The translations under genes were made by a program, and so were the position numbers. From positions 1-23,320 of the IMG/VR virus record IMGVR_UViG_3300025314_001329: 23,320 nt of DNA, one strand, 5' to 3'. The notes under the pieces were generated by a model that ran no database searches, was not told the DNA's origin, and saw nothing but the letters and a program-made list of their open reading frames with translations. Source of the DNA: a virus. Shown here piece after piece: positions 5,152-19,575 of the stretch; position 1 is the first letter of the stretch; the number at the start of each line of letters is the position of its first letter.

Positions 5152-5907
5152 TCAAGCGGTGAAGTACCAGATCCGGCCCTGGCCGACCCGCCCGAACTCG
5201 GAGCGGGGGAGCCTCCTGGCGAGCTGGTTCACGGGGGCGTCGTAGAGGGGCTCGGCCGGGGCGGCGATAGCCGCGTTCACGACCCGGCTCAGGAAGTAGT
5301 AGAGGTCCGAGTAGTAGGTGATTTCAAGCCGATGTCCTGGGAGCACCGAGGCCATGTCCTCGTCCCGGAGGTAGAGGTTGTGCGCCGGGGGCTCGATCGC
5401 CTCGAGCCCCACTGCGCGGCGGAGGGCGTTCAGGTTATCGAGGCCGTCCTGGGAGTTCTCGCAGAGGAGGATCCGGGGCGCGACCTTGGCGAGCCAGGCG
5501 ATCGTCCGTGCCTGCTCCTCCCAGCTTGGGAGGTTCTGGAGCATGCGCTCGGTATAGGCGAGGTCGATCCTGGGGGGAAGACTGAGAAGCCAGCCACTCC
5601 CAAGGCCAGTCACAAACTCGACCGTACCTTCGAGCTTCGGCTCGGCCCGAAGCCTCTCCTGGGCGATCTCGATCATCTTTGGCGAGATGTCGTAGCCGAT
5701 CACCCGCACCTGGAAGTCACGCGCGAGCGCGACCGCGGTCTCTCCCGTGCCACAGCCGAAGTCGAGGACAGTATCGATGTCGAGGGTGATGAAGGAGCGG
5801 ATGGCCTCGATCTCAAGCGCCTTCGCGATCCGATCCCGGGTCCCCGCCTCCTCGCCAAGAGTCTCGGCCCGCTCATCCCAGAAGGCGCGGAGCGCTTCAG
5901 TTCCCAT
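5152..5907 (-). CDS. Class I SAM-dependent methyltransferase
   Basis: 251 aa. The open frame extends further upstream, but ATG at 5907 is chosen because GGAGG lies 4 nt before it and the protein then starts naturally (MGTEALRAFWDERAETLGEE). Motif I is clear at about residues 47-55 (VLDFGCGTG), followed by an acidic motif II region (VIGYDISPKMIEIA). Then comes a post-motif helix-strand pattern (PPRIDLAYTERMLQNLPSWEEQARTI), where the second strand is expected. The C-terminal third (about 175-251) is a substrate-specific region with aromatic residues (YYSDLYYFLSRVVNAA). It overlaps the NeuB-like gene by 11 nt, so it is probably co-translated with the sugar genes and may methylate the sugar or glycan. 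The substrate is inference; DNA or protein methylation cannot be excluded, but no DNA-methylase catalytic motif is seen. Confidence 0.8.
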   Translation of the reverse strand: MGTEALRAFWDERAETLGEEAGTRDRIAKALEIEAIRSFITLDIDTVLDFGCGTGETAVALARDFQVRVIGYDISPKMIEIAQERLRAEPKLEGTVEFVTGLGSGWLLSLPPRIDLAYTERMLQNLPSWEEQARTIAWLAKVAPRILLCENSQDGLDNLNALRRAVGLEAIEPPAHNLYLRDEDMASVLPGHRLEITYYSDLYYFLSRVVNAAIAAPAEPLYDAPVNQLARRLPRSEFGRVGQGRIWYFTA

Positions 5908-6712
5908 GGAGCCTCCGAGTCTCAGGGCAAGGGCTGTGGTGAAAGGCCCCGAGGATTGGATCGATTGCGTTGTAGATCTCTGAGAGATCCGCCACGTAAT
6001 CCTCGAACGCTCTCGGCTCGAAGGCATGCTCGGCAGTATCCGGCCCTCCTTGTTGGTCCTTGAGCTTCAAGTGATGCTCGATGACCCGAGCCCCGAGGGC
6101 GATCGCGGCTGCGGCAGCGACCGAACTCGTGGTGTGGTCTGAGAATCCCACGCGATCAGTCCTCGTCTTGAGCAAAGCCAGGCGGGCGAGGCTCGCGTGG
6201 CACAGCTCGGTTGGGTATTCACTCACGCAGTGGAGCCAATGGGCCTTGGGATCCCGCGCGAGAAGCCCGTCAAGATCCTCATCCGCGACTTGGCCCAGAG
6301 AGACGATTCGAGGCTTGTCCGCGGTCGCCTCCCAGAGGGCGGGATCGAGAGCCTCGAAGCTGCCGATCTTCCACACCTTGACGTAGGGGCGGAGGACGTC
6401 GCAGGCCCAAGGGGCAAACGGCGTACAGAGGAAATCAATCCCGTAATCTGATGCTTGTTTCGCCAAGGCCACGACCCAGTCGGGCTTGAGTTCCCATCGC
6501 CTATAGCTCCTCGGGAACTCGCGCAGGATGTCCTCGGCGTGAAAGAGCTGGAACTTGACCGCGTCGGCACCACTAACCGCCGCCGCCTCGACCAGCGCCT
6601 TCGCGGTGTCGAGCTTCCCCATGTGGTTCGATCCGGCCTCGGCGATCAAGTAGAGGCTTGGGCAAAAATCCTCTCCCCCACTCGGATCACGTCCTCTAGC
6701 GGTGCATTCCAT
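5897..6712 (-). CDS. NeuB/SpsE-like sialic acid (nonulosonic acid) synthase, lacking the C-terminal SAF domain
   Basis: 271 aa. Enzymes of this family condense phosphoenolpyruvate with a 6-carbon N-acyl amino sugar to a 9-carbon nonulosonic acid. Family motifs in order: IAEAGSNHMGKLDTAKAL (residues 23-40), ADAVKFQLF (49-57), FLCTPF (94-99), CVSEYPTEL (162-170), VGFSDHT (188-194), GARVIEHHL (207-215) and GPDTAEHAFEP (223-233). The histidines in SDHT and EHH correspond to the metal ligands of NeuB. The usual I-S-T-G-M strand reads IVSLGQV. The protein ends soon after the TIM barrel, so the antifreeze-like SAF domain that normally makes these enzymes about 340-350 aa is absent. The ATG start lies inside the cytidylyltransferase gene (67-nt overlap) and is supported by GAGGAG 5 nt upstream. 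Confidence 0.85.
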   Translation of the reverse strand: MECTARGRDPSGGEDFCPSLYLIAEAGSNHMGKLDTAKALVEAAAVSGADAVKFQLFHAEDILREFPRSYRRWELKPDWVVALAKQASDYGIDFLCTPFAPWACDVLRPYVKVWKIGSFEALDPALWEATADKPRIVSLGQVADEDLDGLLARDPKAHWLHCVSEYPTELCHASLARLALLKTRTDRVGFSDHTTSSVAAAAAIALGARVIEHHLKLKDQQGGPDTAEHAFEPRAFEDYVADLSEIYNAIDPILGAFHHSPCPETRRLHGN

Positions 6713-7326
6713 GGCAACTCCTCGTATATCGACCGCACGAACTCAAGGTCCTCCTCGGTATCGATCGAGTACTTGGCCTTGGCATCATAGGGGAAGTGCT
6801 CGACATGTGTCCTCCAAGTCGGGATGTCATAGAAGATCGTCGTCCCATCACGGCGGAAACTCACCATGGCGGCCGAGGCTTCTTTGAGCGCCTGTCGAGT
6901 CACGACTCGGACCTCGAACCCGCTGATCCCGATGATACCCAGGAAGTCGAGCCCCATCGCGCGGTGATCGGAGATCGCGTGGTCGATCGTCTGTGGGTCA
7001 ATGAAGGGGCAGTCCCCGGTGATCTCGACCACAGTATCGAGGTTCAGGCGATCCGCTGCGCTAAGAAGCTCGGCCATCAAGTCGCCTCGCTCCCACCACC
7101 TCAGGCCCTGTACGTAGCGGATGTTCGATTGAGCGAGGAAAGAGGCTTGTGCCATATCTCCATGCGGTATAAGCACATGGGTCTCGACCGTGGTCCCTGA
7201 TGCAAGGCCCACCCGCCGGTAGACTACATCAATGAGTGCCCCATGGCCTAGTGCCTCGAAGCACTTCCCAGGGAACCGGCTCGACCCGGTACGCGACTCA
7301 ATCAGAACCCCAATCCGCTCTCCCAT
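6646..7326 (-). CDS. SpsF-like cytidylyltransferase (nucleotide-sugar activating enzyme)
   Basis: 226 aa, ATG start, overlapping the dehydratase gene by 29 nt. It has the GT-A-type nucleotidyltransferase signature: GVLIESRTGSSRFPGK (about residues 6-21) is the nucleotide-binding loop with the R-x3-S-x-R-x-P-G-K pattern. ERGDLMAELLSAADRL (79-94) and VVEITGDCPFIDPQTID (99-115) supply the metal/ribose-contact region with a D-C-P-x-I-D-P motif. YSIDTEEDLEFVRSIYEEL (186-204) is the family C-terminal end. These enzymes transfer CMP from CTP to a sugar acid such as a nonulosonic acid. Bacillus SpsF is the nearest named family; NeuA/PseF are functional equivalents. Adjacent to the synthase, it would form CMP-nonulosonate in the cytoplasm. 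The true sugar is not determinable. Confidence 0.85.
   Translation of the reverse strand: MGERIGVLIESRTGSSRFPGKCFEALGHGALIDVVYRRVGLASGTTVETHVLIPHGDMAQASFLAQSNIRYVQGLRWWERGDLMAELLSAADRLNLDTVVEITGDCPFIDPQTIDHAISDHRAMGLDFLGIIGISGFEVRVVTRQALKEASAAMVSFRRDGTTIFYDIPTWRTHVEHFPYDAKAKYSIDTEEDLEFVRSIYEELPWNAPLEDVIRVGERIFAQAST
6718..6723 (-). promoter_or_regulatory. Ribosome-binding site deciding the NeuB-like start
   Basis: GAGGAG on the minus strand, 5 nt before ATG 6712, inside the cytidylyltransferase gene. It supports the longer N-terminus over an in-frame TTG at 6649, which would give a 4-nt TTGA overlap but cut off part of the first barrel strand. The hexamer is also part of a Glu-Glu codon pair, so chance cannot be excluded. 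Confidence 0.55.
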
Positions 7327-8170
7327 CGCTCCTCCAAGGGACTCGCTCGACGAGGTTCCCGCGGTATGGGTCCGGGTGGATCACGAAGTAGTGGCCGTGG
7401 GAGTCTGTCCGTCGGAGCTCGTCCTCGCCGATCAGAGTCTCGTGTTTCCTCTCGGTCCACCGGAGCCCGATCAGTTCGACCTCCGTGCCGTCAGGGATCA
7501 AGTCGCCCAGGCGCCGGGCGGGGAGACGGGGCACAAAGATCTCCCCGCCCTTCATCTCCTCGAGGACGAAGTCGATGAACTTGACCGCTGCCTCGAGCGT
7601 GATCCAGAAGCGCGTCGAGTCGGGATCGGTCACGGGAAGCACCTCTCCCGGCTCAAGTTCGCGGATCCTCGTCAGAAAGGAGCCTCGTGAGTGCTCCACG
7701 TTACCGTAGCGGACAGCCGAGATCGTGGTCTCAGACCAGCGGTTGGCCTGGACGGCGAGGTGCTCCCCGATGAGCTTCGTCCCGCCGTAGAGGGTCGTCG
7801 GCTCGACCCCCTTGTCGGTCGAGATGAAGAGCACGCGCTTCACCTTGGCAGCGATCGCCGCGTGGAAGACATTCGCCGTACCGACGATGTTCGTCTTGAT
7901 GAACTCGTCGGGGTTGTAGCTGCCGTTCGGGATGATCTTGAGTGCGGCCGCGTGGATCACGGTCTCGATGCCTTGCATCGCGCGCGTGAGCTTCTCCGGA
8001 TCCCGGACATCGCCGAGGACGAACTGGACTCCTGACTCAGGGGGCAGCGCCCGGCGCATCGCATCCTGCTTCTGCTCGTCCCGGCTCAAGATCCGGATCC
8101 GGCCCTCGTAGTCCGTATAGGTCAAGAAGGCGCGACCGAGGCTCCCGGTGCCGCCCGTCAGGAGGAGCAT
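7298..8170 (-). CDS. PseB/CapD-like UDP-sugar 4,6-dehydratase (extended SDR)
   Basis: 290 aa, ATG directly after the TAG of the 90-aa gene. Rossmann motif TGGTGSLG at residues 5-12. The PseB/FlaA1-type signature follows: ILSRDEQKQ (27-35), HAAALKIIPNGSYNPDEFIK (73-92), STDKGVEP (117-124) and catalytic YGGTK (128-132). Then come RYGNVEHSRGSF (154-165), TRFW (186-189), GGEIFVPRLPARRLGDL and, in place of the usual R-P-G-E-K-x-H-E, WTERKHETL. The family removes water from UDP-GlcNAc to give a 4-keto-6-deoxy sugar, the first step of pseudaminic acid and related pathways (PseB; Bacillus SpsM). It is shorter than the usual roughly 330 aa and has STRF where PseB proteins usually have MTRF. Alternatives: other CapD/FlaA1-like dehydratases or epimerases. 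The NAD(P)-linked family is secure; the exact product is not. Confidence 0.85.
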   Translation of the reverse strand: MLLLTGGTGSLGRAFLTYTDYEGRIRILSRDEQKQDAMRRALPPESGVQFVLGDVRDPEKLTRAMQGIETVIHAAALKIIPNGSYNPDEFIKTNIVGTANVFHAAIAAKVKRVLFISTDKGVEPTTLYGGTKLIGEHLAVQANRWSETTISAVRYGNVEHSRGSFLTRIRELEPGEVLPVTDPDSTRFWITLEAAVKFIDFVLEEMKGGEIFVPRLPARRLGDLIPDGTEVELIGLRWTERKHETLIGEDELRRTDSHGHYFVIHPDPYRGNLVERVPWRSDGRADWGSD

Positions 8171-8443
8171 CTACCGAACCATGTTGGGCGGAGTAGGCAG
8201 ATCTCCCGCATTCACAAGCAGCACCAGCCCAAAGTCGGTTTCGTAGGTAGTCACCGCGTCGAGGCCCTCGGGACCGTTCTTGCCCCACTTGGCGCCTTCT
8301 TGTCTAATCTGGGTGAGGTTTCCACCGAAGACGAAAACGACCTCGGCGAGGGTGTTGATCGCCTCCTCCGCAAGCCGTCGATAGTGAGCCATCGCTCGCT
8401 TGGTTAGGCGGCCTCGGTAGTAACTGCGCTTTAGGCTATGCAT
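8171..8443 (-). CDS. Small protein of unknown function in the sugar module
   Basis: 90 aa. The frame is open upstream to a GTG at 8470, but ATG 8443 is preferred because the upstream stop codon runs straight into AGGAGGA, 5 nt before it. The protein is basic at the start (MHSLKRSYYRGRLTKRAMAH), with a likely helix (residues 15-35, AEEAINTLAEVVFVFGG), then a beta-prone C-terminal part (TTYETDFGLVLLVNAGDLP). No membrane segment, cysteine motif or known domain is recognised. It sits between the GT-B protein and the dehydratase and is directly joined to the latter (TAG then ATG). This suggests co-expression with the sugar genes, but gives no clue to its activity. Confidence 0.75.
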   Translation of the reverse strand: MHSLKRSYYRGRLTKRAMAHYRRLAEEAINTLAEVVFVFGGNLTQIRQEGAKWGKNGPEGLDAVTTYETDFGLVLLVNAGDLPTPPNMVR

Positions 8444-8448
8444 CGGAC

Positions 8449-8455
8449 TCCTCCT
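8449..8455 (-). promoter_or_regulatory. Ribosome-binding site AGGAGGA for the 90-aa gene
   Basis: The minus strand reads TAAGGAGGAGTCCGATG: the stop codon of the GT-B gene is fused to a near-perfect Shine-Dalgarno sequence, 5 nt before ATG 8443. It fixes the start of the 90-aa protein and shows termination-reinitiation coupling. Confidence 0.75.
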
Positions 8456-9525
8456 TAGTGCCCCGAGCACACGCGGATGATCTCCTCGGCGATTGCTTGT
8501 GTTGCCTCCCCGGGGCCGTTGAACCAGAGCTTCCCGGCTTCACGCTCAAGCCGGAGTTCCTCCCCGAACTCCTCATCGGCGAGGGCTCGGAGGACAAGCG
8601 GCGCGATCTCCTCGGGCGCCCGCGCCGCACGGATCCCCTTCTTCTCCCAGGCCCAGGTATCGAGCTGGGGCCGGAAGTCGACGATGAGTGCTGGCCGATC
8701 CATGAGGACAGCCTCGGCCGCGGCGGACCCCTTCGGGCTCACGACACAGTCCGCGGCCGGGATTAACTCCGCAAGTCCATGCTCTGTCGTTACATAGGAG
8801 TCGTCGAGCCCGATCAGTTTCAGGTCCTCGCTGACCGCCTTCGGGTTCCACCCCATACCAGCACGGATCGTATAGACGAGCGTGAAGGGAATGGCCTTCC
8901 GGAGTGTCTTCATCGCTTGGAGGAACGAAACCTCCGCATCCCGGCAGACCGAGTCGAAGTCCGACCAGCGGCTCATCCCGTGGGTCCAGGTCGTCGTTCG
9001 GAGGACCAATGGGGGGTGGACCGGGAGCCCGCCGAGCGCTTCGCGACCTTCCTGGGGGGTCATCTTCTCAAGGAAGTCGTAGAAGGGGCGCCCGGTCTCG
9101 TAGAGCTCGCCCGTGTAGCCGTAGGCGCGGAGGAAGGCTGCTTCCTCCGGGCTTGAGAAGATGTGAGTCGAGGCGGGATCGGACTCGAAGTGCCCGTGGA
9201 GGTAGGTGGCGAAGCACCCGTGGTCGACCTCGAAGGCGGGGAGGCCGCGGTGCCGTGCTGCAAGCGCCAGCGCCCGGGTCGCCGGCTGGACCGAGTTCCA
9301 CACGAGGACCCCGACCAGGTCCTCGAGTTCGAGGATCCCGTCGATCGTCTTCCCGACGACGGGCCACCACCCTTCGGCGACTTGGAAGGGGAGGCCCGGA
9401 AACTCGGGCGGCGGATCGGGGCGCCCGAGGCAGAGTTCCTGCTGGGTGAGGATCGTGAAGTGCGGGGCAAGAAGGGTCACGAGTGGCGCCAAGTCGTCCC
9501 GGAAGTTCAGGACGAGCGTCTTCAA
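8455..9525 (-). CDS. GT-B-fold glycosyltransferase / sugar-nucleotide enzyme-like protein
   Basis: 356 aa, TTG start overlapping the stop of the zinc-binding-like gene by 4 nt (TTGA). The first half has alternating strands and helices ending in an HG turn (FEVDHGCFATYLHGH, about residues 98-112). It is followed by STHIFSSPEEAAFLRAYGY and TGRPFYDFL (144-152), like the THIFxWG / xGxPxxD region of CDP-glycerol- or UDP-GlcNAc-2-epimerase-type GT-B proteins. The second half has LAELIPAADCVVSPKGSAAA (251-270) and EAVLMDRPALIVDF, a typical GT-B nucleotide-binding lobe. It could be a glycosyltransferase (SpsB-like), a hydrolysing epimerase (NeuC/LegG-like) or a UDP-sugar hydrolase (PseG/SpsG-like); the motifs seen do not decide. 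The N-terminus does not look like PseG. Its place between dehydratase and acyltransferase-like genes makes a pathway role likely. Confidence 0.6.
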   Translation of the reverse strand: MKTLVLNFRDDLAPLVTLLAPHFTILTQQELCLGRPDPPPEFPGLPFQVAEGWWPVVGKTIDGILELEDLVGVLVWNSVQPATRALALAARHRGLPAFEVDHGCFATYLHGHFESDPASTHIFSSPEEAAFLRAYGYTGELYETGRPFYDFLEKMTPQEGREALGGLPVHPPLVLRTTTWTHGMSRWSDFDSVCRDAEVSFLQAMKTLRKAIPFTLVYTIRAGMGWNPKAVSEDLKLIGLDDSYVTTEHGLAELIPAADCVVSPKGSAAAEAVLMDRPALIVDFRPQLDTWAWEKKGIRAARAPEEIAPLVLRALADEEFGEELRLEREAGKLWFNGPGEATQAIAEEIIRVCSGH

Positions 9526-9725
9526 AGGATGAGCCTTACCGTTTGCGAGTAGACGTCCCCGAGCCGAATCCCGCGGTACTCGACCGGGAGCGTCTTCACC
9601 CGCATCTGCTCCTCCCAGGCTTGGTGATCGGTCTCACAGCGCTTGCAGTCCTCATGCTCGAGGAAGGAACGGATGCAGCCATCGCAGATCCGCCGCTCAA
9701 TGGGTAGGCGGTAATCCTGGCTCAT
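9522..9725 (-). CDS. 67-aa four-cysteine (zinc-ribbon-like) protein
   Basis: The frame is open to 9803, but ATG 9725 is chosen because it overlaps the upstream TGA by 4 nt (ATGA), the prevailing junction in this operon. The protein has C14, C17, C27 and C30 in a C-x2-C-x9-C-x2-C arrangement (ICDGCIRSFLEHEDCKRC), consistent with a small structural zinc site. It is followed by a helix and a beta-prone tail (LPVEYRGIRLGDVYSQTVRL). No other domain fits in this length. It lies between the FemAB-like and GT-B genes. A scaffold or regulator of the glycosylation enzymes is possible, but this is a guess; no function can be assigned. Confidence 0.7.
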   Translation of the reverse strand: MSQDYRLPIERRICDGCIRSFLEHEDCKRCETDHQAWEEQMRVKTLPVEYRGIRLGDVYSQTVRLIL

Positions 9726-10495
9726 ATGAGTCTCATCCCGTAGGCGGTGCGGAGCGTGCCGCCGAACCCACGCTTGAAAATCGCCCTCGCTGGCGAGTTG
9801 CACCCGACGAGATCCGAGACATCGTGGCTCCGGATGAGACGCAGGAGGACGTTCGTCGGCCGGCCGACCGAGCCCAGGTAGTAGCCTCGCTCAGCACCAT
9901 CCCGGCCCCAGACGACCGTGCCATCGCCGTCTGTCCACACCGAGACCGAATCCATCCCCGCGATCTTGGCCATCGTCGCCTCATACTCATCGGTCACCCA
10001 CGGCTGGCTCTTCCAGCGCTGGAACCAGTCACCGGATTTCGTCTCCTCGACTGGCTTCTCAGTCACGTTCCGCTGGCAGCGAGGCTCGAGCTGAGTCGTC
10101 GCGGCCGTCATATACGTGTAGCGTATATCCGGCTGCCAGAGCACTTGTGCGTCGAACCATCGCCAAGTGAAGGGCCGGATGTCAATCAATGACGGGGGGT
10201 TCCAGACCGAGATCGGGCGGCCGCGCTTCTCGGCCCAGGCGATGAGGGCCTGGGCGACCTCGCGGTCCTCGCGCCGGCGAAGCAGCATCCCCTGGTAGGG
10301 CACGAATGGGAGCGGGGTGAGGGAGTGCGTGACGACGATGCCACCTTGTACCTCCGTGCCGTCATAGGCGAGCGCTGCTTCAACCGGATGGAGCGAGAGC
10401 CATTCAGGGAGGACATAGAGGGTCGCCTGATGGGAGTGGTCGACCAAGTAGCGCCATGGCTTCTCGGTCGGATTCGCTTGCTCGACTCGGATCAC
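9722..10495 (-). CDS. FemAB/GNAT-like aminoacyl or acyl transferase
   Basis: 257 aa, GTG start overlapping the glycosyltransferase stop by 4 nt (GTGA). The N-terminal part has TLYVLPEWLSLHPVEAALAY followed by GGIVVTHSLTPLPFVPYQGM (about residues 51-70), the pattern of FemAB-like and related GNAT proteins. The C-terminus has GYYLGSVGRPTNVLLRLI, then VGCNSPARAIFKRGFGGTLR (230-249), matching the G-x-N-x(2-4)-I-x-x-F-K-x-x-F-G ending of that family. Relatives attach amino acids or acyl groups to lipid-linked or nucleotide-linked sugars. Here it could N-acylate the 4-amino group created by the DegT enzyme, the role PseH or SpsD fills in other pathways, but PseH is a different, single-domain GNAT. 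Direct evidence for the acceptor is absent. Confidence 0.55.
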   Translation of the reverse strand: MIRVEQANPTEKPWRYLVDHSHQATLYVLPEWLSLHPVEAALAYDGTEVQGGIVVTHSLTPLPFVPYQGMLLRRREDREVAQALIAWAEKRGRPISVWNPPSLIDIRPFTWRWFDAQVLWQPDIRYTYMTAATTQLEPRCQRNVTEKPVEETKSGDWFQRWKSQPWVTDEYEATMAKIAGMDSVSVWTDGDGTVVWGRDGAERGYYLGSVGRPTNVLLRLIRSHDVSDLVGCNSPARAIFKRGFGGTLRTAYGMRLI

Positions 10496-11766
10496 CGCGC
10501 TTCCTCGATCACCTGGCGATAGAACTGGATTAAGCCGGGGACGGTCCGCTCCGCCGACCGGAAATCCCGGACCCAGTCCTTCGCGTTCTCGGCAAGGCGC
10601 TTCCTGAGCGTCGCATCCTCGATGAGCTCGCCTAATCGCGCCTCGAACTCCTCCGGAGTCTTCCAGAGGAGCCCCGTCTTACGGTCCTCGATTTCAAGGT
10701 AGGGGCCAACGGCTTGCGCGAGGGTCGCGGCTGGGCGATGGACCGCCGAGCTCTCGTACCACTTGATCGCCGACTTGGCGCGGTTGAACTTGGTCTGGGC
10801 GAGGGGGCAGAGGTTCACGTCATGCCCGATCGTCGAGAGCTTCAAGATGTAGGCATCGTGCGGCATCCACGGGATCCACTCTCTGCGAGTCGCGGGGATG
10901 ATGCCGTGGACCGACTGATACTGCATGCCCCAGAAGATGAAGCGCGCCTGCGGGTAGCGCTCGGAGACCCGCCCCAAGGCATCGCGGAGCGGGAACCAGT
11001 CCCGGTAGTGACTCCACCCGCCCTGCCAGAGGATCTTGACTTGCCTGGGGTTCGTCCGCAGCGAGATCCGGGGGTAGTCCTGGAAGCGGACCGAGTTCGG
11101 GAAGACGTAGACCCGCTTCGCCCCAAGCGCCCGGAAGCTCGTCGCTAGGTTCTCGTTCGTGACCGTACAGGCGTCCGCCATTCTCGCCGTTGCTCGGTAG
11201 AGGTGGAGCCGCTTCCAGTTGTCGACAATGTCGAACTTCTGCCCGCCCTGGTAGATCTTCCCATCGCACCACTTCTCGATCGCGTCCCCTGAGTCATCGA
11301 GCTGCATCATAATGCGGTCGCCACGGCCGAGCGGAGTACCATCGACGTGATGGGTGCCGAGGCTCACGAACTTGGGGTTCATCGGGTCGACGGTCGCCAA
11401 ATCATCGTCCGAATCGAAGATCACGACGGGCGGGATCCCGACCTGTTTCCTGACCGGGTCCCAGATCTTCGGGAGTTTTTGCAGGAGCTTGATGCGTTTC
11501 AGAAGCATCTTCGACAGGATCAGGTAGTACATGTGGACGTCGCATTGGGGCGCATAGGCGACCCGCGCCTCGTCACACATGGTCTCCTGGTCATCGATCT
11601 CGTAGGTCCCGAGCCCCATCTCTTGGGCCGTCTTCCATGGGGTCAGGAGCCGGTAGTAGACGCAGGCCGAGTTGAGATTCTCCTGGATCGTATAGAGCTT
11701 GAGGGGTAGGGGCTGGCCGAGCGGGCGGAGGCGGAAGGGAGTGAGTTCCTGGGTTCGCGCGGACAT
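10492..11766 (-). CDS. GT4-type (GT-B fold) glycosyltransferase
   Basis: 424 aa, ATG start. Family features in order: SACVYYRLLTPWKTAQEMG (about residues 33-51), FDSDDDLATVDPMN (117-130), DACTVTNENLATSFRALG (198-215), VYVFPNSVRF (219-228) and LWQGGWSHYRDWFPLRDAL (246-264). Then come FIFWGMQYQ, NRAKSAIKWYESSAVHRPA (328-346) and a C-terminal helical end (LGELIEDATLRKRLAENAKD). These match a GT4-like retaining glycosyltransferase subgroup common in phage and polysaccharide clusters, using a nucleotide-sugar donor. The usual second E-x7-E donor site appears partly as YESS. No signal peptide; cytoplasmic. It is the first gene of the long sugar module and may transfer the sugar made by the downstream enzymes. 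Donor and acceptor are unknown. Confidence 0.8.
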   Translation of the reverse strand: MSARTQELTPFRLRPLGQPLPLKLYTIQENLNSACVYYRLLTPWKTAQEMGLGTYEIDDQETMCDEARVAYAPQCDVHMYYLILSKMLLKRIKLLQKLPKIWDPVRKQVGIPPVVIFDSDDDLATVDPMNPKFVSLGTHHVDGTPLGRGDRIMMQLDDSGDAIEKWCDGKIYQGGQKFDIVDNWKRLHLYRATARMADACTVTNENLATSFRALGAKRVYVFPNSVRFQDYPRISLRTNPRQVKILWQGGWSHYRDWFPLRDALGRVSERYPQARFIFWGMQYQSVHGIIPATRREWIPWMPHDAYILKLSTIGHDVNLCPLAQTKFNRAKSAIKWYESSAVHRPAATLAQAVGPYLEIEDRKTGLLWKTPEEFEARLGELIEDATLRKRLAENAKDWVRDFRSAERTVPGLIQFYRQVIEEAR

Positions 11767-11781
11767 CGGGGGTTCTTTGGC

Positions 11782-12120
11782 TCAGTGACCTCGGATGATG
11801 GTGCGCCCGACCCGGTACTCAGGGTGCTTCCGCATGAAGGCGTAGAAGGCTTTCCGCTCAAGGAAGATCTCGGGGTGCCGGTTCATCAGCACGGCCCACA
11901 CCGAGAGCGGCATGTTGCCGATGTGCTGCATGCGGCCGCCTTGGGAAAGACCGATCGCCGTCGACCCCATCTTCGTCCGGGCGGCTTCAGCAATCGCCTT
12001 CCGGTAATCCTGAAGGGGATCGAAGTACCCGCGGGCGAAGCGCGGGATCCGGCGCGCAAGGTTCTCGGGCTCGATTGCGCGATCGACATCGGTCCGGAGC
12101 CCGTTCAAGTAGAACCCCAT
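11782..12120 (-). CDS. Small protein of unknown function near the capsid genes
   Basis: 112 aa, ATG start sharing one base with the preceding stop (TGATG). The N-terminal half is charged and helical (RTDVDRAIEPENLARRIPRF). The middle carries AIGLSQGGRMQHIGNMPLSV and the end is basic (FYAFMRKHPEYRVGRTIIRG). No known domain is recognised. It closes the row of short genes after the major capsid gene and lies 15 nt upstream of the glycosyltransferase, so it could be a head-completion or accessory head protein. Capsid-linked assignment rests on position only. Confidence 0.7.
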   Translation of the reverse strand: MGFYLNGLRTDVDRAIEPENLARRIPRFARGYFDPLQDYRKAIAEAARTKMGSTAIGLSQGGRMQHIGNMPLSVWAVLMNRHPEIFLERKAFYAFMRKHPEYRVGRTIIRGH

Positions 12121-12281
12121 CAGTCTTCGATGACGACCTTGACCGTGATATTGAGCTCCTGTGGCACGGCGACGGCTGCGGGTGGCTTCGGTTTCCGCGC
12201 CTTCCGCTTTCGGCGCCGGAGGCCAGCGAAGCGGTCCATGTCTTCCGAGCGATCGGCGGGTTCGCGGTTCGCCTGGGCCAT
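12120..12281 (-). CDS. 53-aa basic protein
   Basis: The frame is open to 12374, but ATG 12281 is chosen because it follows the upstream TGA by one base. The central segment is strongly basic (GLRRRKRKARKPKPP), and the C-terminus is beta-prone (QELNITVKVVIED). This is the composition of a nucleic-acid-binding or capsid-interior peptide, but no family is recognised. It is tightly coupled with its neighbours. Confidence 0.6.
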   Translation of the reverse strand: MAQANREPADRSEDMDRFAGLRRRKRKARKPKPPAAVAVPQELNITVKVVIED

Positions 12282-12282
12282 C

Positions 12283-12513
12283 TCAGTATCCGCGCTTCTT
12301 CTTCTGCTTCTTCTTCGCCTGAAGCGAGATCCGGCGGTGGACGGTCTCGGCCCCTGCGGTCCCACCCCGGTCAACGATCACGAGTTCTCCGCCGCCACCG
12401 CCGGGGGCGGTCGACGGGTCGCCCTTCGGATCCCCGGCATGGACGATCGAAGGGGTATAGCCCTTCTGGCCTTGGATCTTGGGCCTCGCCCCGGTCTTCG
12501 GCTTCTTAGCCAT
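12283..12513 (-). CDS. 76-aa basic, Gly-rich protein
   Basis: ATG start with GAGGGGG 6 nt upstream. The ends are lysine-rich (MAKKPKTGARPK; QAKKKQKKKRGY), with a flexible Gly-rich middle (PSTAPGGGGGELVIVDRGG). Probably a disordered, DNA- or capsid-associated peptide. No domain is recognised. It is preceded by an 87-nt gap that holds a strong hairpin, so it may begin a separately regulated part of the transcript. Confidence 0.65.
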   Translation of the reverse strand: MAKKPKTGARPKIQGQKGYTPSIVHAGDPKGDPSTAPGGGGGELVIVDRGGTAGAETVHRRISLQAKKKQKKKRGY

Positions 12514-12600
12514 CGTCTTCCCCCTCGGGGGCCGGGCAGGCGGGGAGAAGGTCGCCTTGCCCGGCCCCTGGGGTGCGCTCCGTACCCTCGGGATCCGGAG
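12514..12600. other. 87-nt intergenic gap with a GC-rich hairpin
   Basis: This is the longest non-coding stretch in the window. It carries an imperfect inverted repeat (12528-12568, see separate entry) and a ribosome-binding site for the 76-aa gene. I see no AT-rich promoter and no tRNA. Confidence 0.7.
12528..12568 (-). terminator. GC-rich stem-loop without U-tract (possible attenuator or processing site)
   Basis: Arms 12528-12542 and 12553-12568 are complementary over 15 base pairs with a single bulged base, and are separated by a 10-nt loop (12543-12552). In the minus-strand transcript the hairpin is followed not by a run of U but directly by the GAGGGGG ribosome-binding site of the 76-aa gene. 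It is therefore not a classical Rho-independent terminator. It could attenuate, stabilise mRNA 3' ends after the capsid module, or limit translation. High GC raises the chance of random pairing, but this length in the only large capsid-side gap is notable. Confidence 0.45.
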
Positions 12601-12774
12601 CTAGCTGTTCTTCCCGTGCTTGGCGACCGCCGCTTCCCGGGAGTTCTTGTAGGGAAGCGGGGTCACCGAGTCGAAAAGAGTCTCCGGCACCGCTTCCGCG
12701 GTCTTCTTCTTCATCGGTCCCTGGCCGCCGCCGGTGCCGAGGGGAGTCTTACCGACCGAAGTTCGCTCCGCCAT
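12601..12774 (-). CDS. 57-aa small protein
   Basis: An open frame starts with ATG at 12774, sharing one base with the upstream stop (TGATG), and ends in TAG at 12601-12603. Translation begins MAERTSVGKTPLGTGGGQGP, followed by a lysine run and a tail PYKNSREAAVAKHGKNS. It is short, basic and probably disordered, and fills the space between the 94-aa gene and the hairpin gap. Its support is the coupled junction and the continuous tiling; no family is recognised. Confidence 0.6.
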   Translation of the reverse strand: MAERTSVGKTPLGTGGGQGPMKKKTAEAVPETLFDSVTPLPYKNSREAAVAKHGKNS

Positions 12775-13058: not shown

Positions 13059-13063
13059 GAGAA

Positions 13064-14068
13064 TTAGCCCTGCGCGCCCGCGTAGTTCGAGACGCCCCAG
13101 AAGGAGCCGTGGGTCTTCTCGTTGATCGGGCACACGGTGAGTTCGCCGACGACCATGCCTCGGGTCGCGTCCCCCACAGCCGCGAGCGGCACATGGCGGA
13201 TCGGCCGGAGGATCTTGTAACGGATGTTCGGGGTCTCGATGAACCACGCGCGCCCGATGCGGCTCGTGTGGCTGATGTCCGTGTTCGCCGCCTGCCGGAC
13301 CCAGCGATCGAGGACGATGTTGATGATCCCGACATCGGAGTCGTACATGTCAACGGAGGCGATGAGCTTCTTCTCGGCCATGGTGATGTTCCGGCGGCTC
13401 GCCCCTTGGCCCGAGAAGCCGGAGATCTGACGCTTGGTCGCCGCCGAGACGTAGGCCGAGTCCGGGTTCCCACCCGTGTTGAAGATCTGCTCCAAGATCC
13501 CGTTGAAGCGATCCTCGGTCATCAAGGTCGCCGAGGCCGAGGCACCAGCGACACCCGCGTTCAAGCCCCACTCGCCCGTATTCGCGGGGTTGACGTTCGT
13601 CGTCACCATGTCCTCGAGGGTCTTCATGTGGCGCGCGGTGCCAGTCGTACCCTGGGCACACACCCCTGAGGCCCCGAAGGACTTGACCTCGATGTTCCGG
13701 ACGACTTGCCTGAGCGACTTGTAGGCCTCGTAGCCGTAGGCGTCCTTGGCGCCGGCCATCAAGACTGCGCGCTGGGTGTTCGTGACCTTGAAGTCGTCGC
13801 GAAAGATCTGGCAGTAGTTGAACTTGCGAGAGGGGGCCGTGCGATCGGAGGGGTTAAAGTCCCCGCCTTCGGTGGCGCCCCCGGTTGAAGTGGCAGCGAG
13901 GGTGTCCTCGAGCCACTCGACGGTTACGTGGTTAGCGTCTTCCTTGGGGCTAGCGACGTAGAGCGGCGTTTCCCAGGGGTCGACGATGCCTATGAAGTCG
14001 GCAAGGTCCTCCCGGTTCGCCGAGCCAGCGCCGAAGCCGTAGAGATAGGTCGAGGGAGTGCCAGCCAT
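13064..14068 (-). CDS. Major capsid protein, SU10/DUF5309-like (HK97 fold)
   Basis: 334 aa, ATG start with GAGGG upstream. The N-terminus has the family pattern: DLADFIGIVDPWETPLYVAS (residues 21-40), VTVEWLEDTL (48-57), a variable loop with TEGGDF, then RKFNYCQIFRDDFKVTNTQR (81-100) and the long helix region KDAYGYEAYKSLRQVVRNIE. This is the layout of the SU10-type major head protein family (DUF5309), which adopts the HK97 fold. The C-terminal half carries the axial beta strands (IGIINIVLDRW; WFIETPNIRYKILRPIRHV). It follows a scaffold-like gene and builds the icosahedral shell. Expect high copy number. No maturation protease is seen nearby. Confidence 0.8.
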   Translation of the reverse strand: MAGTPSTYLYGFGAGSANREDLADFIGIVDPWETPLYVASPKEDANHVTVEWLEDTLAATSTGGATEGGDFNPSDRTAPSRKFNYCQIFRDDFKVTNTQRAVLMAGAKDAYGYEAYKSLRQVVRNIEVKSFGASGVCAQGTTGTARHMKTLEDMVTTNVNPANTGEWGLNAGVAGASASATLMTEDRFNGILEQIFNTGGNPDSAYVSAATKRQISGFSGQGASRRNITMAEKKLIASVDMYDSDVGIINIVLDRWVRQAANTDISHTSRIGRAWFIETPNIRYKILRPIRHVPLAAVGDATRGMVVGELTVCPINEKTHGSFWGVSNYAGAQG

Positions 14069-14092
14069 AGTGAGCCCTCACGAGCCCCCGGT

Positions 14093-14965: not shown

Positions 14966-15315
14966 TCTTCTCCTTCGGCGCTCGTTTCTGGGAGGAAGGG
15001 GCTACGGTGTCCGTAGCGGAGTTCGTGCTCCTCCGCCCGCTCAAGCGTCGCACCTCGCTGATCTTCCTCAGCCTTGAGTTGAAGTGCAAGCTCAAACTCC
15101 TCGATCTCTTTCCACGGCCAGGCGAGGACCCATTGGAGGCTCGCCGACTCGCCGAGGATCGAGCGGAGCTCGCCTTCGGAGAGGCTCCCCCGGCCCGCGA
15201 GTGCCTTGTAGGTGAGGCCCTCGAGACGGCGCTGGGCCTCGGGGGCGAGGACCTCCTCCCACCCTGGGGAGGCGAGCATCGCTCGGAGCGCGTCGATTCG
15301 GTGCGGGTCGTCCAT
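14962..15315 (-). CDS. 117-aa protein between portal and scaffold
   Basis: ATG start, 3 nt after the portal stop region and overlapping the scaffold start by 4 nt (ATGA). The protein is mainly helical and acidic (DALRAMLASPGWEEVLAP; LQWVLAWPWKEIEEFELALQ; LKAEEDQRGATLERAEEHEL). It resembles, in size and position, the small helical proteins often found next to portals in podovirus operons, but no family is recognised. Possible portal or scaffold partner; inferred from position only. Confidence 0.65.
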   Translation of the reverse strand: MDDPHRIDALRAMLASPGWEEVLAPEAQRRLEGLTYKALAGRGSLSEGELRSILGESASLQWVLAWPWKEIEEFELALQLKAEEDQRGATLERAEEHELRYGHRSPFLPETSAEGEE

Positions 15316-15318
15316 GGC

Positions 15319-17217
15319 CTACCCGGGGGCGAGCGGCGGGAGTCCCGCCATACCCGCGGCGAGGCTCACGGGGGGCCCTGGGCCCTCGGGCCCCTGTCCG
15401 CCGCCGTTCCCGGTCGGGGACCCACCGAGCGGCGAAAGTCCTTGAGTCATCTGAAGTTGCGCCATTTGCCCGGGGGGTGGGTTGAGTAGCTCCTGTACAT
15501 TATAGAGTTCATTGGCGAGGAACATCTCCCGGAAGAAGGCCGCCCAGTTGATGAGGGCCGCCCCCGCGGGGTGGGCCGAGAACATCTGGAAGAGCATCGA
15601 GAGCCGCTGGCTCCGTTCCTGCTTCCCCAAGGCCTGGGTCGCCCCCATCGCCCGGACGTCGTAGTCCCGGTAGAGGTCCCCCATCTCGACGACTGGGTTC
15701 TCCTGGATGGCCTGGCCGGTGACGGGGTCTAGGACCGCGTTCATCCCGAGGATCTTGAGTTCCTTCGGCACGGTGAGGAGTTGGCGGTTCAAGGCCCGGA
15801 AGATCTGGGCCAGGGGCTCAATCCACATCTCCTCGGCGAGCCTCGACTCGAGGAGGAGCCTCACCGAGACGTTCTCCTGGCGGCCCATGAACTCGCGGGC
15901 GGTGACCCGGGACCCGGCCCCCATCCCCATGACGACGTCTTCGATGATACCTGTCGACTGCTGCATCCACCGCCAGAGGTCCTGGATCTCCTGGTAGGCG
16001 TTCTGGACTCCCTGCATGTTGGGGACCAGGGCCTGGATCGCCTCGGGCGGGGGCACATCGGACTCGATCACCCCGCCAGGGCGGGTGCGGAGCTTCCGGC
16101 GGTCGATACCAGCGTTCCGGTTGGCGACGAACATGGGGTCGATGAAGAGGTCCAAGGCATCGAGCTTCTGGCAGGCGATCTTGTTGGCCGAGACCTGGAG
16201 CTTTTCAGAGACCTCGGCTTTGCCCGGGCCGAAGAACTGGTGGGGGTCCCGCATCGGGGAGTAGTGGAGGAAGGGTTTGCGGGCATGCCACCAGGGGTTC
16301 GGGCGGTTGCGGAGGAGGACGTTCCCGTTGGCGATCGTGATGACGCGCTGAGTGCCGCCGTCGTCGGGGATGAACTCCTGGGGGACGGTCCCCCACATAT
16401 GGAGGATCTCGACTGGCTTTGAGTATTTCTCGCGCTTGGGGCTCGGGACGTCGTAGCCCGCCCGTATTGCCGGGCGGCGCTCGTAGAAGTCGCCCTGAGA
16501 TTCCGAGAAGAGCCGCCCCAGTTCGAGCTTCTTCAGTCCCTTGCGGTCATAGATCTTCGCTTCGACGAGGACCCGGACGTCATCCAAGTCGGGCCACTCG
16601 CGATAGATGAACCAGGCCATATCGTGGATGTCATGGACGTTCGGCTGGGGGAAGGAGTCGAGGATATCGAGGACATCTAAGTCGGGGCCGTCGAAGGTGG
16701 TGACTGGCTCGACCCGCATCTTCTCCATGTAGCGGCCCGTGAGAGGAGCTGCGACCTGGTCCCGGCGCAGCAACATCTCCTCGTCGTAGCGCCACCCGTG
16801 GTGGAGGATCCCGGTGCCGTAGAGGTCGGAGGCGAGCGTGAAGTCATAGGCCTTCAGCAGGATCGCCGCGTCGCGCATCTGGGCCGAGAGGAGGAGTTCG
16901 TTCCTGCGGGCGATGGGTGCATCCTCGGGTCCGTAGCCGAACATGCCGACGTAGGGCCAGACGCCGAAGGCGGTATTCAGCTTCCGGGCGACGTCGGACT
17001 GCACGGTCGAGAAGACAAGCGGGATCGTGATGTAGTTCCGGTGGGCCTCGAACTCGCCTTTGAAGATCATCCGGTAGAGCTCGTACCAGCGGACGCACTT
17101 TCGGTGGTAGGAGAGGTGGGCCTGTTGGGAGTGCTTGAAGCGCGAGTTCACGAGGTCGAGGATGCCCTCGTCGGTCGCCGGTGCGGGATGGGTGAGCTCC
17201 GAGTACCGGGTCGCCAT
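15319..17217 (-). CDS. Portal protein (podovirus-type)
   Basis: 632 aa from ATG 17217, which shares one base with the methyltransferase stop (TGATG); the frame is open further upstream but lies inside that gene. The N-terminus is helical with a WYELYRMIFKGEFEAHRNYI stretch, then a conserved portal pattern: VARKLNTAFG, then YDFTLASDLYGTGILHHGWR (about residues 127-146), the usual aspartate/glycine turn of portal wings. PGGVIESD and STGIIEDVVMGMGAG / RVTAREFMGRQE are typical C-terminal clip/stem regions. The C-terminus is Gly/Pro-rich and disordered (GGGQGPEGPGPPVSLAAG). Twelve copies would form the packaging and head-tail ring. Family prototype not determined. Confidence 0.8.
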   Translation of the reverse strand: MATRYSELTHPAPATDEGILDLVNSRFKHSQQAHLSYHRKCVRWYELYRMIFKGEFEAHRNYITIPLVFSTVQSDVARKLNTAFGVWPYVGMFGYGPEDAPIARRNELLLSAQMRDAAILLKAYDFTLASDLYGTGILHHGWRYDEEMLLRRDQVAAPLTGRYMEKMRVEPVTTFDGPDLDVLDILDSFPQPNVHDIHDMAWFIYREWPDLDDVRVLVEAKIYDRKGLKKLELGRLFSESQGDFYERRPAIRAGYDVPSPKREKYSKPVEILHMWGTVPQEFIPDDGGTQRVITIANGNVLLRNRPNPWWHARKPFLHYSPMRDPHQFFGPGKAEVSEKLQVSANKIACQKLDALDLFIDPMFVANRNAGIDRRKLRTRPGGVIESDVPPPEAIQALVPNMQGVQNAYQEIQDLWRWMQQSTGIIEDVVMGMGAGSRVTAREFMGRQENVSVRLLLESRLAEEMWIEPLAQIFRALNRQLLTVPKELKILGMNAVLDPVTGQAIQENPVVEMGDLYRDYDVRAMGATQALGKQERSQRLSMLFQMFSAHPAGAALINWAAFFREMFLANELYNVQELLNPPPGQMAQLQMTQGLSPLGGSPTGNGGGQGPEGPGPPVSLAAGMAGLPPLAPG

Positions 17218-17792
17218 CAGCTTGGCGCCTCGCAGTCCCCAGGGTCGGGGACCTTCTCGCATTTGGCGAGGATGTAGATGACACCATCGGTTGAGGGATC
17301 GGAGATCCCAAGCGCGATCCGGTAGGCGCACTTGATGAGGTAGGGGGCATAGATCCGGCGGAAGGGGTGGCTTTCGAGGCGCGGCGGCCCGCCGTTTTCG
17401 TCTTTGACCTCCCGCACCGAGTAGTAGAAGAAGCTGTTCGGGTTCCAGAAGGAGACGTGGGTCGGGTCCTGGAAGGCGCCGCGGCCGTCGGTCGAGGGGA
17501 CGAGGATATGGAAGATGCCGCCTACGCGGAGGACCCGCCAGGCTTCGTTCATTGTGTGGATCGGGTCTCGGAGGTGCTCGACCAGGTCGTTAGCTTGGAT
17601 AAAGTCGACCGAGTCCGAGGCCCAGGGCCAGGGTCCCTCGAGATCGACAACACAGTCGATCCCGGGGAAGCGGAAGCGGTCGACGTTCACGAACCCGGGT
17701 TCGGGGTGCCGGTTCGCACCGAGGTTCAGCTTCAACTGGGTCTTGGGGGCCCGCGATTTGCCTTTCCGAGGGAGGAGGGCGCCGGTCGTCAA
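17217..17792 (-). CDS. Class I SAM methyltransferase (type-11-like)
   Basis: 191 aa, TTG start overlapping the aminotransferase stop by 4 nt (TTGA). Motif I region LKLNLGANRHPEPGFVNVDR (residues 20-39) and DCVVDLEGPWPWASDSVDFI lead into ANDLVEHLRDP, then MNEAWRVLRVGGIFHILVPS, the hallmark post-motif segment of small type-11 methyltransferases. A conserved QDPTHVSFWNPNSFFYYS segment follows. Proteins of this type occur in both phage genomes and sugar clusters. Coupled to the DegT gene, it may modify the sugar or a glycan intermediate. The substrate is not shown by the sequence; it precedes the portal gene directly, so it is co-expressed with virion genes. Confidence 0.8.
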   Translation of the reverse strand: MTTGALLPRKGKSRAPKTQLKLNLGANRHPEPGFVNVDRFRFPGIDCVVDLEGPWPWASDSVDFIQANDLVEHLRDPIHTMNEAWRVLRVGGIFHILVPSTDGRGAFQDPTHVSFWNPNSFFYYSVREVKDENGGPPRLESHPFRRIYAPYLIKCAYRIALGISDPSTDGVIYILAKCEKVPDPGDCEAPS

Positions 17793-18871
17793 ACTCTCGC
17801 GACACCTCGGTAGAAGTGGATCAAGGCTTCGGCTTTGAGTGTAGCTTCCTCGGGGCTCTCAGGAGGATCGGTCGTCAGGATCGAGGCCACGAACTCATGG
17901 GCTCCGAGGAGACAGCCGTCTGAAAAGCGGCGTTTGAAGTAGGGGATGCAGCAGAGCGGGGTCGCGTAGCCTCGGCGCCAGCCCGCTGGGGCAGGTTCCG
18001 GCGGCCCAAGGTCCTGGACGTAGAAGACATAGGGTGGATTCACGAGCTCCTGGGGCCGCACGGATTCAATCGAGAGAAGCCGCGCGCGGAGGAGTTCGGA
18101 CGACACCTTGCGGGTGAACTGGCGGCTGAAAAGTTCCGAGATCTCGGCATAGGCGACGGCGGCCTCGAGTTCGGTCATCCGGTAGTTCGAGCCGAGGACG
18201 TCTTCGGAGTGGTTCTCGCCATGGTTACGGGCGAGGCGGAGTCGCTCGGCGAGCTTATCGCTTCGCGTCATCGCAACTCCACCCTCGCCACACTGGATCA
18301 CCTTGTGCTGGTTCAACGAAAGCACCCCGATTGCGCCCGTGGTCCCTGCAAACTCGCTCTCCGAGTCGACGCACGCAGGCGCCTGGGCTGTGTCCTCGAC
18401 GATCTCAAGCCACGGAAACTCGTTCCGGATCGGGTAGGTGTCGGCGACTTGGCCGAAGAGGTGAACCAAGACCAGAGCCGAGGGCCGGATCGGACTCTCG
18501 TCGGCGGAGCGGGAGAGCGCCTCTCGGATCGTCTCCATGGTCACGAGCCCGGTCGACTTCGAGACATCGACGAAGACAGGGGTGGCACCCAAGTGGGCGA
18601 CGGCCGCAGCCGAGGCCGTCATCGTGAGGCCGGAGACGAGGACGCGGTCAGAGGGGCCTATCCCGAGTGCCCGCAGTGCCCCTTCGAGCGCTGTGGTCGC
18701 GCTTGAGTAGGAAACAGCATGGGGGACTCCAAACATGGCCCGAACTTCGGTCTCCAAGAGGTTGAGGAACTTTCCTCCGCGGGGGCGGCTGACCCGCATC
18801 CCGGAGAGGATTCCGGATTCGATGACTTCATCGAGGTACTTTCGCGAGAGGGCCTTCGTCTCTGGGCTCAT
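17789..18871 (-). CDS. DegT/DnrJ/EryC1-type PLP aminotransferase (sugar aminotransferase)
   Basis: 360 aa from ATG 18871, which overlaps the oxidoreductase stop by 4 nt (ATGA); the longer frame is rejected. Signature elements: ILSGMRVSRPRGGKFLNLLE near the N-terminus, SYSSATTALEGALRALGIGP (about 54-73), EDTAQAPA (159-166) and SLNQHKVIQCGEGGVAMT (185-202), where K190 is the expected PLP lysine and GEGG contacts the cofactor. ARNHGENHSEDVLGSNYRMT follows, as in the family. These enzymes add an amino group from glutamate to a keto sugar; PseC and SpsC are relatives. It would act on the 4-keto sugar from the dehydratase encoded about 9 kb away. Substrate regiochemistry cannot be read from the sequence. 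It lies between terminase and portal genes. Confidence 0.85.
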   Translation of the reverse strand: MSPETKALSRKYLDEVIESGILSGMRVSRPRGGKFLNLLETEVRAMFGVPHAVSYSSATTALEGALRALGIGPSDRVLVSGLTMTASAAAVAHLGATPVFVDVSKSTGLVTMETIREALSRSADESPIRPSALVLVHLFGQVADTYPIRNEFPWLEIVEDTAQAPACVDSESEFAGTTGAIGVLSLNQHKVIQCGEGGVAMTRSDKLAERLRLARNHGENHSEDVLGSNYRMTELEAAVAYAEISELFSRQFTRKVSSELLRARLLSIESVRPQELVNPPYVFYVQDLGPPEPAPAGWRRGYATPLCCIPYFKRRFSDGCLLGAHEFVASILTTDPPESPEEATLKAEALIHFYRGVARV

Positions 18872-19575
18872 CGGTGGTCTTTGAGCGTCGCCTCGATCGC
18901 CCGGATCGCGTCGTGCGGCGGGCATTGGGGCTCGGTCCCGTACTCGATCGCAGAGATCAAGTCCGAGATCGCCTTCCCCATCGTATTCTGGCGGATCCGG
19001 CCCCACAAGGGCACTGAGTCGGAAAAGAGGCCGGGCTCTCGGCCATCCGGGAGGACGCGGGGGCGGTCCTTATAGAGCCCGGCGAGGTGGTGGGCGTGGA
19101 CATCGTTTCGCCACGGCCCCCCACCGTAACGGATGGTCTCGGGCCGAGGCATCCGGCGGACATCGAGATCCCAGGCCCGGGCGTGGTTCACCTGGACCGA
19201 GATCCCGAGTTCTTCCGAGCGCTCGGCGATCTCCCGGGCTCCCGCGACCGTCGTCGCGAGCGGCTTCTCGATGAAGAGGCCGAGGGGGGTGAAGAAGCCA
19301 AGGATCCGCCGGAAGACCTCGAGGTGGGTCTTCTCGGGGGTCGCAATCGAGATCAAGTGCGGGCACCATAAGGAGAGGAAGGAGAGATCGCTCGTGAGCC
19401 CGACTCCCGGTGGGATGGTCCCGGAGAGGCGGAGCCACTCGAGCCTCTCCTCTGAGGTATCGATGAGTCCCGCGAGTTCGGTCCGGGGGTGCTCCAAGTA
19501 CCCCTGGGCGTGGTTTTGGGGCATCTCGACCCCGGCGAACCCGGCGCCCACGACTACGGCTCGATAGCGACCCAT
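18868..19575 (-). CDS. Gfo/Idh/MocA-type oxidoreductase, shortened
   Basis: 235 aa, ATG start, overlapping the large terminase gene by 22 nt. Rossmann motif VVVGAGFAG (residues 7-15), ATPEKTH (78-84) and the family-defining EKPLATTVAGAREIAE (103-118) followed by VQVNHAR. The C-terminus has the usual closing helix (ISDLISAIEYGTEPQCPPHD). The family oxidises or reduces sugars with NAD(P). Most members are 330-390 aa; here the beta-sheet substrate domain between about residues 130 and 195 is strongly reduced, so the active site may be atypical or dependent on partners. It is directly coupled to the DegT gene, a pairing common in nucleotide-sugar pathways. Confidence 0.8.
   Translation of the reverse strand: MGRYRAVVVGAGFAGVEMPQNHAQGYLEHPRTELAGLIDTSEERLEWLRLSGTIPPGVGLTSDLSFLSLWCPHLISIATPEKTHLEVFRRILGFFTPLGLFIEKPLATTVAGAREIAERSEELGISVQVNHARAWDLDVRRMPRPETIRYGGGPWRNDVHAHHLAGLYKDRPRVLPDGREPGLFSDSVPLWGRIRQNTMGKAISDLISAIEYGTEPQCPPHDAIRAIEATLKDHR

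Follow-up and report, generated by a model that had tools for sequence, protein, structure and literature searches.

Why would a small tailed phage carry, among the genes of its own particle, enzymes of the kind found in bacterial clusters for sialic-acid-like sugars? The question is raised by IMG/VR virus record IMGVR_UViG_3300025314_001329, whose 23,320 bases we analyzed over their full length (the window). This record is a genome fragment with half of the genome unseen; its relatives are small tailed phages with genomes of approximately 42 to 46 kb. An earlier note on this DNA had proposed that a pathway for an activated nonulosonic acid (NulO) is interleaved with virion genes. Our results make it slightly better than an even bet that the phage carries a NulO-type pathway to a cytidine monophosphate (CMP)-activated sugar in two gaps of its late operon and that soluble transferases put the product on a virion protein. 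Of the parts of this interpretation, a NulO-type product is quite probable, and the virion as its target stands at an even chance.

Enzyme families of the candidate pathway

Every open reading frame (ORF) named in the earlier note was recovered at its position on the minus strand, the strand of all cassette genes described here. Profile searches confirmed the families proposed for the PseB-like, DegT, NeuB-like and SpsF-like proteins, a family 4 glycosyltransferase (GT4) and two methyltransferases.

The synthase (5897-6712, 271 residues) belongs to the NeuB family (PF03102, 8.3e-39; TIGR03569, 1.8e-42) and lacks a SAF domain. The TIM-barrel catalytic domain of the NeuB/PseI family is present with its active-site residues kept: E25, K53, K115, H193, E212 and H214 match positions conserved in all or nearly all of 152 homologues. 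The overlapping gene (6646-7326) encodes an SpsF-like cytidylyltransferase of the CTP_transf_3 family (PF02348, 7.6e-11), which carries the motifs RTGSSRFPGK and TGDCPFID and whose nearest solved chain is the cytidylyltransferase 6oew (1e-10); judged on these matches, it would be, at the family level, a CMP-sugar synthetase of the PseF/SpsF type. Both enzymes thus fall in the families expected by the earlier note, with the expected motifs. All NCBIfam matches of cassette proteins score below the equivalog cut-offs, and therefore support a family but not an exact function or substrate.

The dehydratase (7298-8170, 290 residues) clearly belongs to the PseB-type family of uridine diphosphate N-acetylglucosamine (UDP-GlcNAc) 4,6-dehydratases: TIGR03589 is its best match (4.2e-79; 266 bits against a cut-off of 408), the YxxxK motif is present and the nearest solved chain is the UDP-GlcNAc C6-dehydratase 2gn4 (2.3e-59). 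Approximately 10 kb away from the NeuB/SpsF block lies a DegT/DnrJ/EryC1 aminotransferase of 360 residues, dependent on pyridoxal phosphate (PLP) (17789-18871; PF01041, 3.6e-50). It conserves the PLP-lysine motif NQHK..CGEGG and scores higher with the LegC-like family TIGR04181, its best NCBIfam match (8e-42, 143 bits), than with PseC (124 bits), neither reaching the cut-off.

The enzyme list of the earlier note proved incomplete: a short Gfo/Idh/MocA oxidoreductase of 235 residues (18868-19575; PF01408, 3.8e-14) had been missed between the terminase and DegT genes. This protein is a candidate sugar dehydrogenase paired with DegT. Its copies in two related loci, L264 and L003, show 46-51% identity and retain EKPLAT, VNHARAWD and WRNDVHAHHLA. 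Of 64 bacterial loci with a SAF-length NeuB, 17 have a Gfo relative near it, as do 9 of 31 virus loci with a short NeuB. Because Gfo is a recurring companion of NulO genes in bacterial loci and phage cassettes alike, the Gfo/DegT pair of the window more likely belongs to the pathway than stands there by accident; at its simplest, this step would be read as an oxidation and then an amination.

Two further proteins were assigned through structure models. The product of 9722-10495 (hereafter FemAB), previously described as a FemAB/GNAT-like transferase, has no Pfam match. Its AlphaFold model is good (predicted local distance difference test, pLDDT, 85) and resembles FemX, FemA and the aminoacyl-tRNA-dependent synthase Sba18 at VIA Z scores of 15-18.6 (18.6 to 9wqy, 17.6 to FemX 6snr and 17.0 to FemA 1lrz). 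The predicted fold is that of FemA/FemX and not of a PseH-like GNAT, which leaves the first half of the former label standing and makes the protein a candidate aminoacyl-tRNA-dependent N-acyl transferase. The second protein (GTB; 8455-9525), described before as a GT-B sugar-nucleotide protein, gives only weak matches in profile scans of sequence families, and nothing was found when its sequence profile was compared with solved structures. Its model, of moderate quality (pLDDT 70), places it in the NeuC/UDP-GlcNAc 2-epimerase superfamily (VIA Z 23.5 to 7vz6 and 20.3 to NeuC 5zlr), and hhalign relates it to a profile of NeuC-type proteins that adjoin NeuB in the fetched loci, with a probability of 97% and an E-value of 8e-11 (14% identity, alignment uncertain). 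GTB is thus a candidate nucleotide-sugar hydrolase/epimerase or transferase.

These families suggest a scheme in which the order of reactions, the exact sugar and the acceptor are our reading of gene families, active-site motifs, operon position and conservation. The PseB-type enzyme would produce a 4-keto-6-deoxy UDP-amino sugar, to which the Gfo/DegT dehydrogenase/aminotransferase pair would add an amino group. Acylation, possibly with an amino acid, may be performed by FemAB or by a host enzyme. GTB could free or epimerise the sugar, or else act as a transferase; the SAF-less NeuB would join the sugar to phosphoenolpyruvate and SpsF would activate the sugar acid with CMP. Soluble glycosyltransferases including GT4 may then place it on a co-made protein, most likely a virion protein.

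We may also hypothesize that NeuB and SpsF act here on a substrate other than a nine-carbon one, yielding a different acidic or amino sugar (octulosonic-type or 3-amino). The best NCBIfam matches of the cytidylyltransferase are indeed 3-deoxy-D-manno-octulosonic acid (KDO) cytidylyltransferases, although far under the cut-off; Gfo and DegT resemble WbpB/WbpE pairs, WbpE being among the solved matches of the DegT profile; and the substrate may shift with the loss of SAF. This alternative is nevertheless quite improbable: the synthase is clearly of the NeuB family, with NeuB active-site residues, and a PseB-type dehydratase and SpsF accompany NeuB in many other phages (the 50 virus records with NeuB, which include related locus L099, have CTP_transf_3 over the cut-off in 43 cases and Polysacc_synt_2 in 37).

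Arrangement among virion genes

Profile searches confirmed the large terminase subunit, terL (19554-21251; phrog_38, 4.1e-51), the portal protein (15319-17214; phrog_332, 7e-19; phrog_1216, 6e-14), the major capsid protein (13064-14068; phrog_1328, 1.1e-58) and an adaptor-like protein. Relatives of the capsid protein are LUZ24-type podoviruses, at approximately 30% identity. As had been claimed, the sugar genes lie on the same strand as terL, portal and capsid; this is the minus strand, and most of the sugar genes overlap. Most cassette junctions overlap by 1-82 nucleotides (nt) or are separated by at most 51 nt: overlaps of 4 nt are seen at Gfo/DegT, at DegT and methyltransferase MT_B, at GT4/FemAB and at GTB and the small gene g93, and the overlaps of terL/Gfo and PseB/SpsF measure 22 and 29 nt, respectively. 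Given this shared strand and these tight junctions, the cassette is likely co-expressed late with the virion genes. Only one gap in the cluster is long (653 nt, 12121-12773): it lies between the gene following capsid and g112, and it holds only small basic ORFs. A second assembly, L002, repeats the order terL-Gfo-DegT-methyltransferase-portal-capsid at 99.5-100% identity, and the terL-to-capsid half is therefore no assembly chimera.

The remaining cassette genes include GT4 itself (10492-11766; phrog_7162, 5.5e-25), a core gene of the phage group, and g112 (11782-12120), a small protein present in 26 loci that precedes GT4 in many relatives. Two genes encode S-adenosylmethionine-dependent methyltransferases: MT_B (17217-17792; phrog_6636, 8e-8), with relatives in 11 loci of the group, and MT_A (5152-5907; PF13649, 3.6e-13), whose start near 5907 was picked by eye. 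The small protein g99 (8171-8470), inside the cassette, has no Pfam or PHROG match. The small protein g93 (9522-9803) has a CxxC...CxxC pattern, no confident Pfam match, and similar proteins adjoining GTB in L262 and L099. It stands directly before GTB every time (9522-9803 in the window, 9810-9995 in L262, 7944-8042 in L099) and is possibly a metal-binding partner. Outside the cassette, positions 282-2213 encode a tail-fibre or spike-like protein, a possible receptor-binding protein, whose strand-like pattern repeats and for which PHROG gives no match.

Conservation in related podoviruses

Scans with TerL and GT4 gave approximately 100 virus loci; alignment-based searches recovered relatives where single-protein scans of viral contigs (NeuB, GT4, PseB) had not. 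The common order is terL-[gap 1]-portal-scaffold-capsid-g112-GT4-[gap 2]-adaptor-tail, with GT4 in approximately 89 loci, nearly always between capsid and adaptor. Gap 1 usually contains an RNase H/exonuclease-like gene, sometimes accompanied by a glycosyltransferase or methyltransferase. In the window this gene (for example, L024:2951-3529) is missing after terL, and its place is taken by Gfo and DegT.

The earlier note had made the case depend on related phages keeping these genes together: a minority does so, at the same two places. IMG/VR record 3300009506_001321 keeps both halves, with terL-Gfo-DegT-MT_B-portal and, further on, capsid-g112-GT4 and, after an interval, FemAB-g93-GTB-PseB; L003 retains terL-Gfo-DegT-MT_B-portal; and gap 2 of L099 (capsid-adaptor) contains g93, GTB, a CTP_transf_3 enzyme and a SAF-less NeuB. 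The same gap of L099 (9241-13049) also holds a methyltransferase, a GT2 glycosyltransferase, a PF01467 cytidylyltransferase and further ORFs without Pfam match. In L262, an ORF between methyltransferase and FemAB (8105-8764) appears sulfotransferase-like by eye and has no Pfam match. A strong DegT (L035:4455-5540, 2e-110) and an epimerase-like gene (L058:4424-5323) both lie between portal and capsid; sugar genes therefore insert at several places in this group. FemAB also stands behind GT4 in a broader subset of relatives that lack the pathway, and GT4 too occurs without it, so that neither is dedicated to the pathway.

Between 3300009506_001321 and the window, pathway genes share 48-61% identity, and GT4, capsid and terminase 44-60%. 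The pathway genes have no internal stops and a ratio of nonsynonymous to synonymous change (pN/pS) of 0.46-0.60, with pS close to saturation. We rejected a recent capture of the cassette, since pathway genes diverge like virion genes. That they are passive morons, taken from a host not long ago and without enduring function, would fit their variable presence (of 50 group records, many fragmentary, 1 has NeuB and 7 have DegT); however, the sugar genes of the two phages diverge at the pace of terminase and capsid, stay open, overlap their neighbours and keep position, which makes this the least probable of the alternatives considered.

Departures from canonical pathways and the target of the sugar

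Several observations weigh against a NulO pathway serving the virion. No GNAT acetyltransferase was found among the ten cassette proteins scanned in this fragment. GTB does not retain the NeuC motif GGE/DE..RH in the uncertain hhalign alignment. The SAF Pfam domain has no match in the window NeuB, which stops where SAF would start. The contig of the closest relative, 3300009506_001321, stops in gap 2 at PseB, so that any SpsF and NeuB would lie past its end, and the pathway genes are confined to the minority of records given above. Finally, other phage cassettes with a window-type NeuB sit among early replication genes where examined, and virion use is therefore not general. Because no GNAT is seen in the fragment, SAF is missing and the GTB motif appears changed, the gene set is most aptly described as a phage variant of NulO synthesis, not a canonical pseudaminic (Pse), legionaminic (Leg) or Sps cluster. 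The set proposed before does lie inside the virion operon, but these changes, the FemA/FemX fold and the extra Gfo/Idh leave no one-for-one match.

In studied NeuB-type synthases, SAF contributes to the active site. The tail after the metal-binding histidine is 57 residues long in the window NeuB, compared to approximately 105-120 in SAF-length bacterial homologues. The short form was seen in 32 of the 80 sampled virus sequences and in 8 of the 72 bacterial ones (odds ratio 5.3); the sample was drawn with one query, whose profile was itself built from two short proteins, and the figures count sequences rather than independent events, some virus rows being near copies. FastTree pairs the window and L099 synthases (support 84) inside a group of 14 virus rows (support 86), with a long-branch warning. 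The short form is not unique to viruses, as a short NeuB-family protein of 290 residues has already been solved (6ncs).

In several distinct contigs of the window-NeuB lineage (L131/132/134, L163/165/166, L173/178), genes for PseB, Gfo, NeuB, GNAT, a CelD-like protein, SpsF and a class III aminotransferase are clustered (L131, a near copy, ends before PseB). Some of these contigs hold phage terminase or replication genes, and the L132 and L178 cassettes lie near replication or recombination genes, not virion genes. Compact cassettes with a SAF-less NeuB are seen at L132:7858-14079, L163:8132-14402 and L178:8841-15463. Kinship of FemAB with the CelD-type proteins of such cassettes, one of which weakly matches PF13480, was undetectable by hhalign and is not claimed. 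Among cultured phages, tblastn found NeuB in two records, PseB in six and GTB in none.

The early position of related cassettes also suits a serious rival: the same CMP-sugar may be spent, via host export, on the surface polysaccharide of the infected cell, for receptor masking or superinfection exclusion. Phage NulO-modifying enzymes alter capsule sugars in Acinetobacter prophages (PMC12053666), and sugar genes for lipopolysaccharide and capsular polysaccharide, including NeuA, occur in marine viruses (PMC5332604). In the window, however, the cassette sits among virion genes with GT4 a core gene there, and a hydropathy scan revealed no membrane-spanning stretch in any protein, hence no flippase of the Gtr type or membrane transferase in this half of the genome. 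Cell-surface use thus has an appreciable but clearly minor chance. The location of the cassette between virion genes, where GT4 is core, favors the virion as target, and the lack of any visible membrane-spanning protein in the operon favors transfer by soluble enzymes; neither FlmG nor Maf has a match in the window. As a third destination, the sugar or an aminoacyl-sugar might hypermodify phage DNA: the cassettes of L180, L163 and L132 lie near genes resembling, by eye, those for DNA methyltransferases or ParB-like proteins. With thymidylate-synthase/hydroxymethylase homologues absent from 25 records of relatives, and the window genes in a virion operon, this is very improbable.

A more specific version of the virion reading would combine the SAF-less NeuB, the Gfo/Idh and aminotransferase pair and a FemA/FemX-type aminoacyl transfer replacing GNAT acetylation into a slimmed pathway, whose aminoacylated NulO coats the virion as an integral part of late-operon particle assembly; in this full form we consider it unlikely. 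If the general interpretation is true, small tailed phages make a sialic-acid-like sugar de novo, timed with virion assembly. Their particles could then be glycoproteins with a negative charge, able to resist or steer both adsorption and recognition. Natural SAF-less synthases would test the purpose of the SAF domain, and the cassette would be a compact source of NulO enzymes.

Comparison with known systems

No published account of a phage NulO synthesis operon was found in the open literature, subscription papers being outside coverage. The phage set has a PseB-type dehydratase, DegT, NeuB and SpsF in common with the bacterial Pse, Leg and Bacillus sps clusters, and Gfo/Idh occurs near bacterial NeuB too. 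In contrast with these clusters, it is split over two late-operon gaps, its NeuB is SAF-less, no GNAT is seen, and it includes a FemA/FemX-fold transferase and a NeuC-fold protein that appears to lack the NeuC motif. Bacillus SpsC-G form one run of aminotransferase, GNAT, synthase, cytidylyltransferase and SpsG; the window set is not so arranged.

EpaA and EpaB of Acinetobacter prophages, which only convert host-made pseudaminic acid (PMC12053666), are likewise phage genes acting on a NulO, whereas the window holds a near-complete synthesis set among virion genes. Giant viruses encode nucleotide-sugar synthesis for virion glycans (PMC10117803, PMC9614988). The window pathway would be a bacterial-virus counterpart, differing in that those are eukaryotic giant viruses using other sugars and this is a small tailed phage. 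We know of no dedicated sugar-acid synthesis pathway in mycobacteriophages. Mycobacteriophage glycosyltransferases decorate capsid and tail-tube protein according to Freeman et al. (2023), as cited in PMC12619734. FlmG, which O-glycosylates flagellin with pseudaminic acid in the cytoplasm (PMC7591256), provides a model for a soluble transferase putting a CMP-NulO on an assembling protein, the difference being that its acceptor is bacterial flagellin. Together with mycobacteriophage virion glycans, as far as the citing article relates them, FlmG gives the virion-target reading its precedents.

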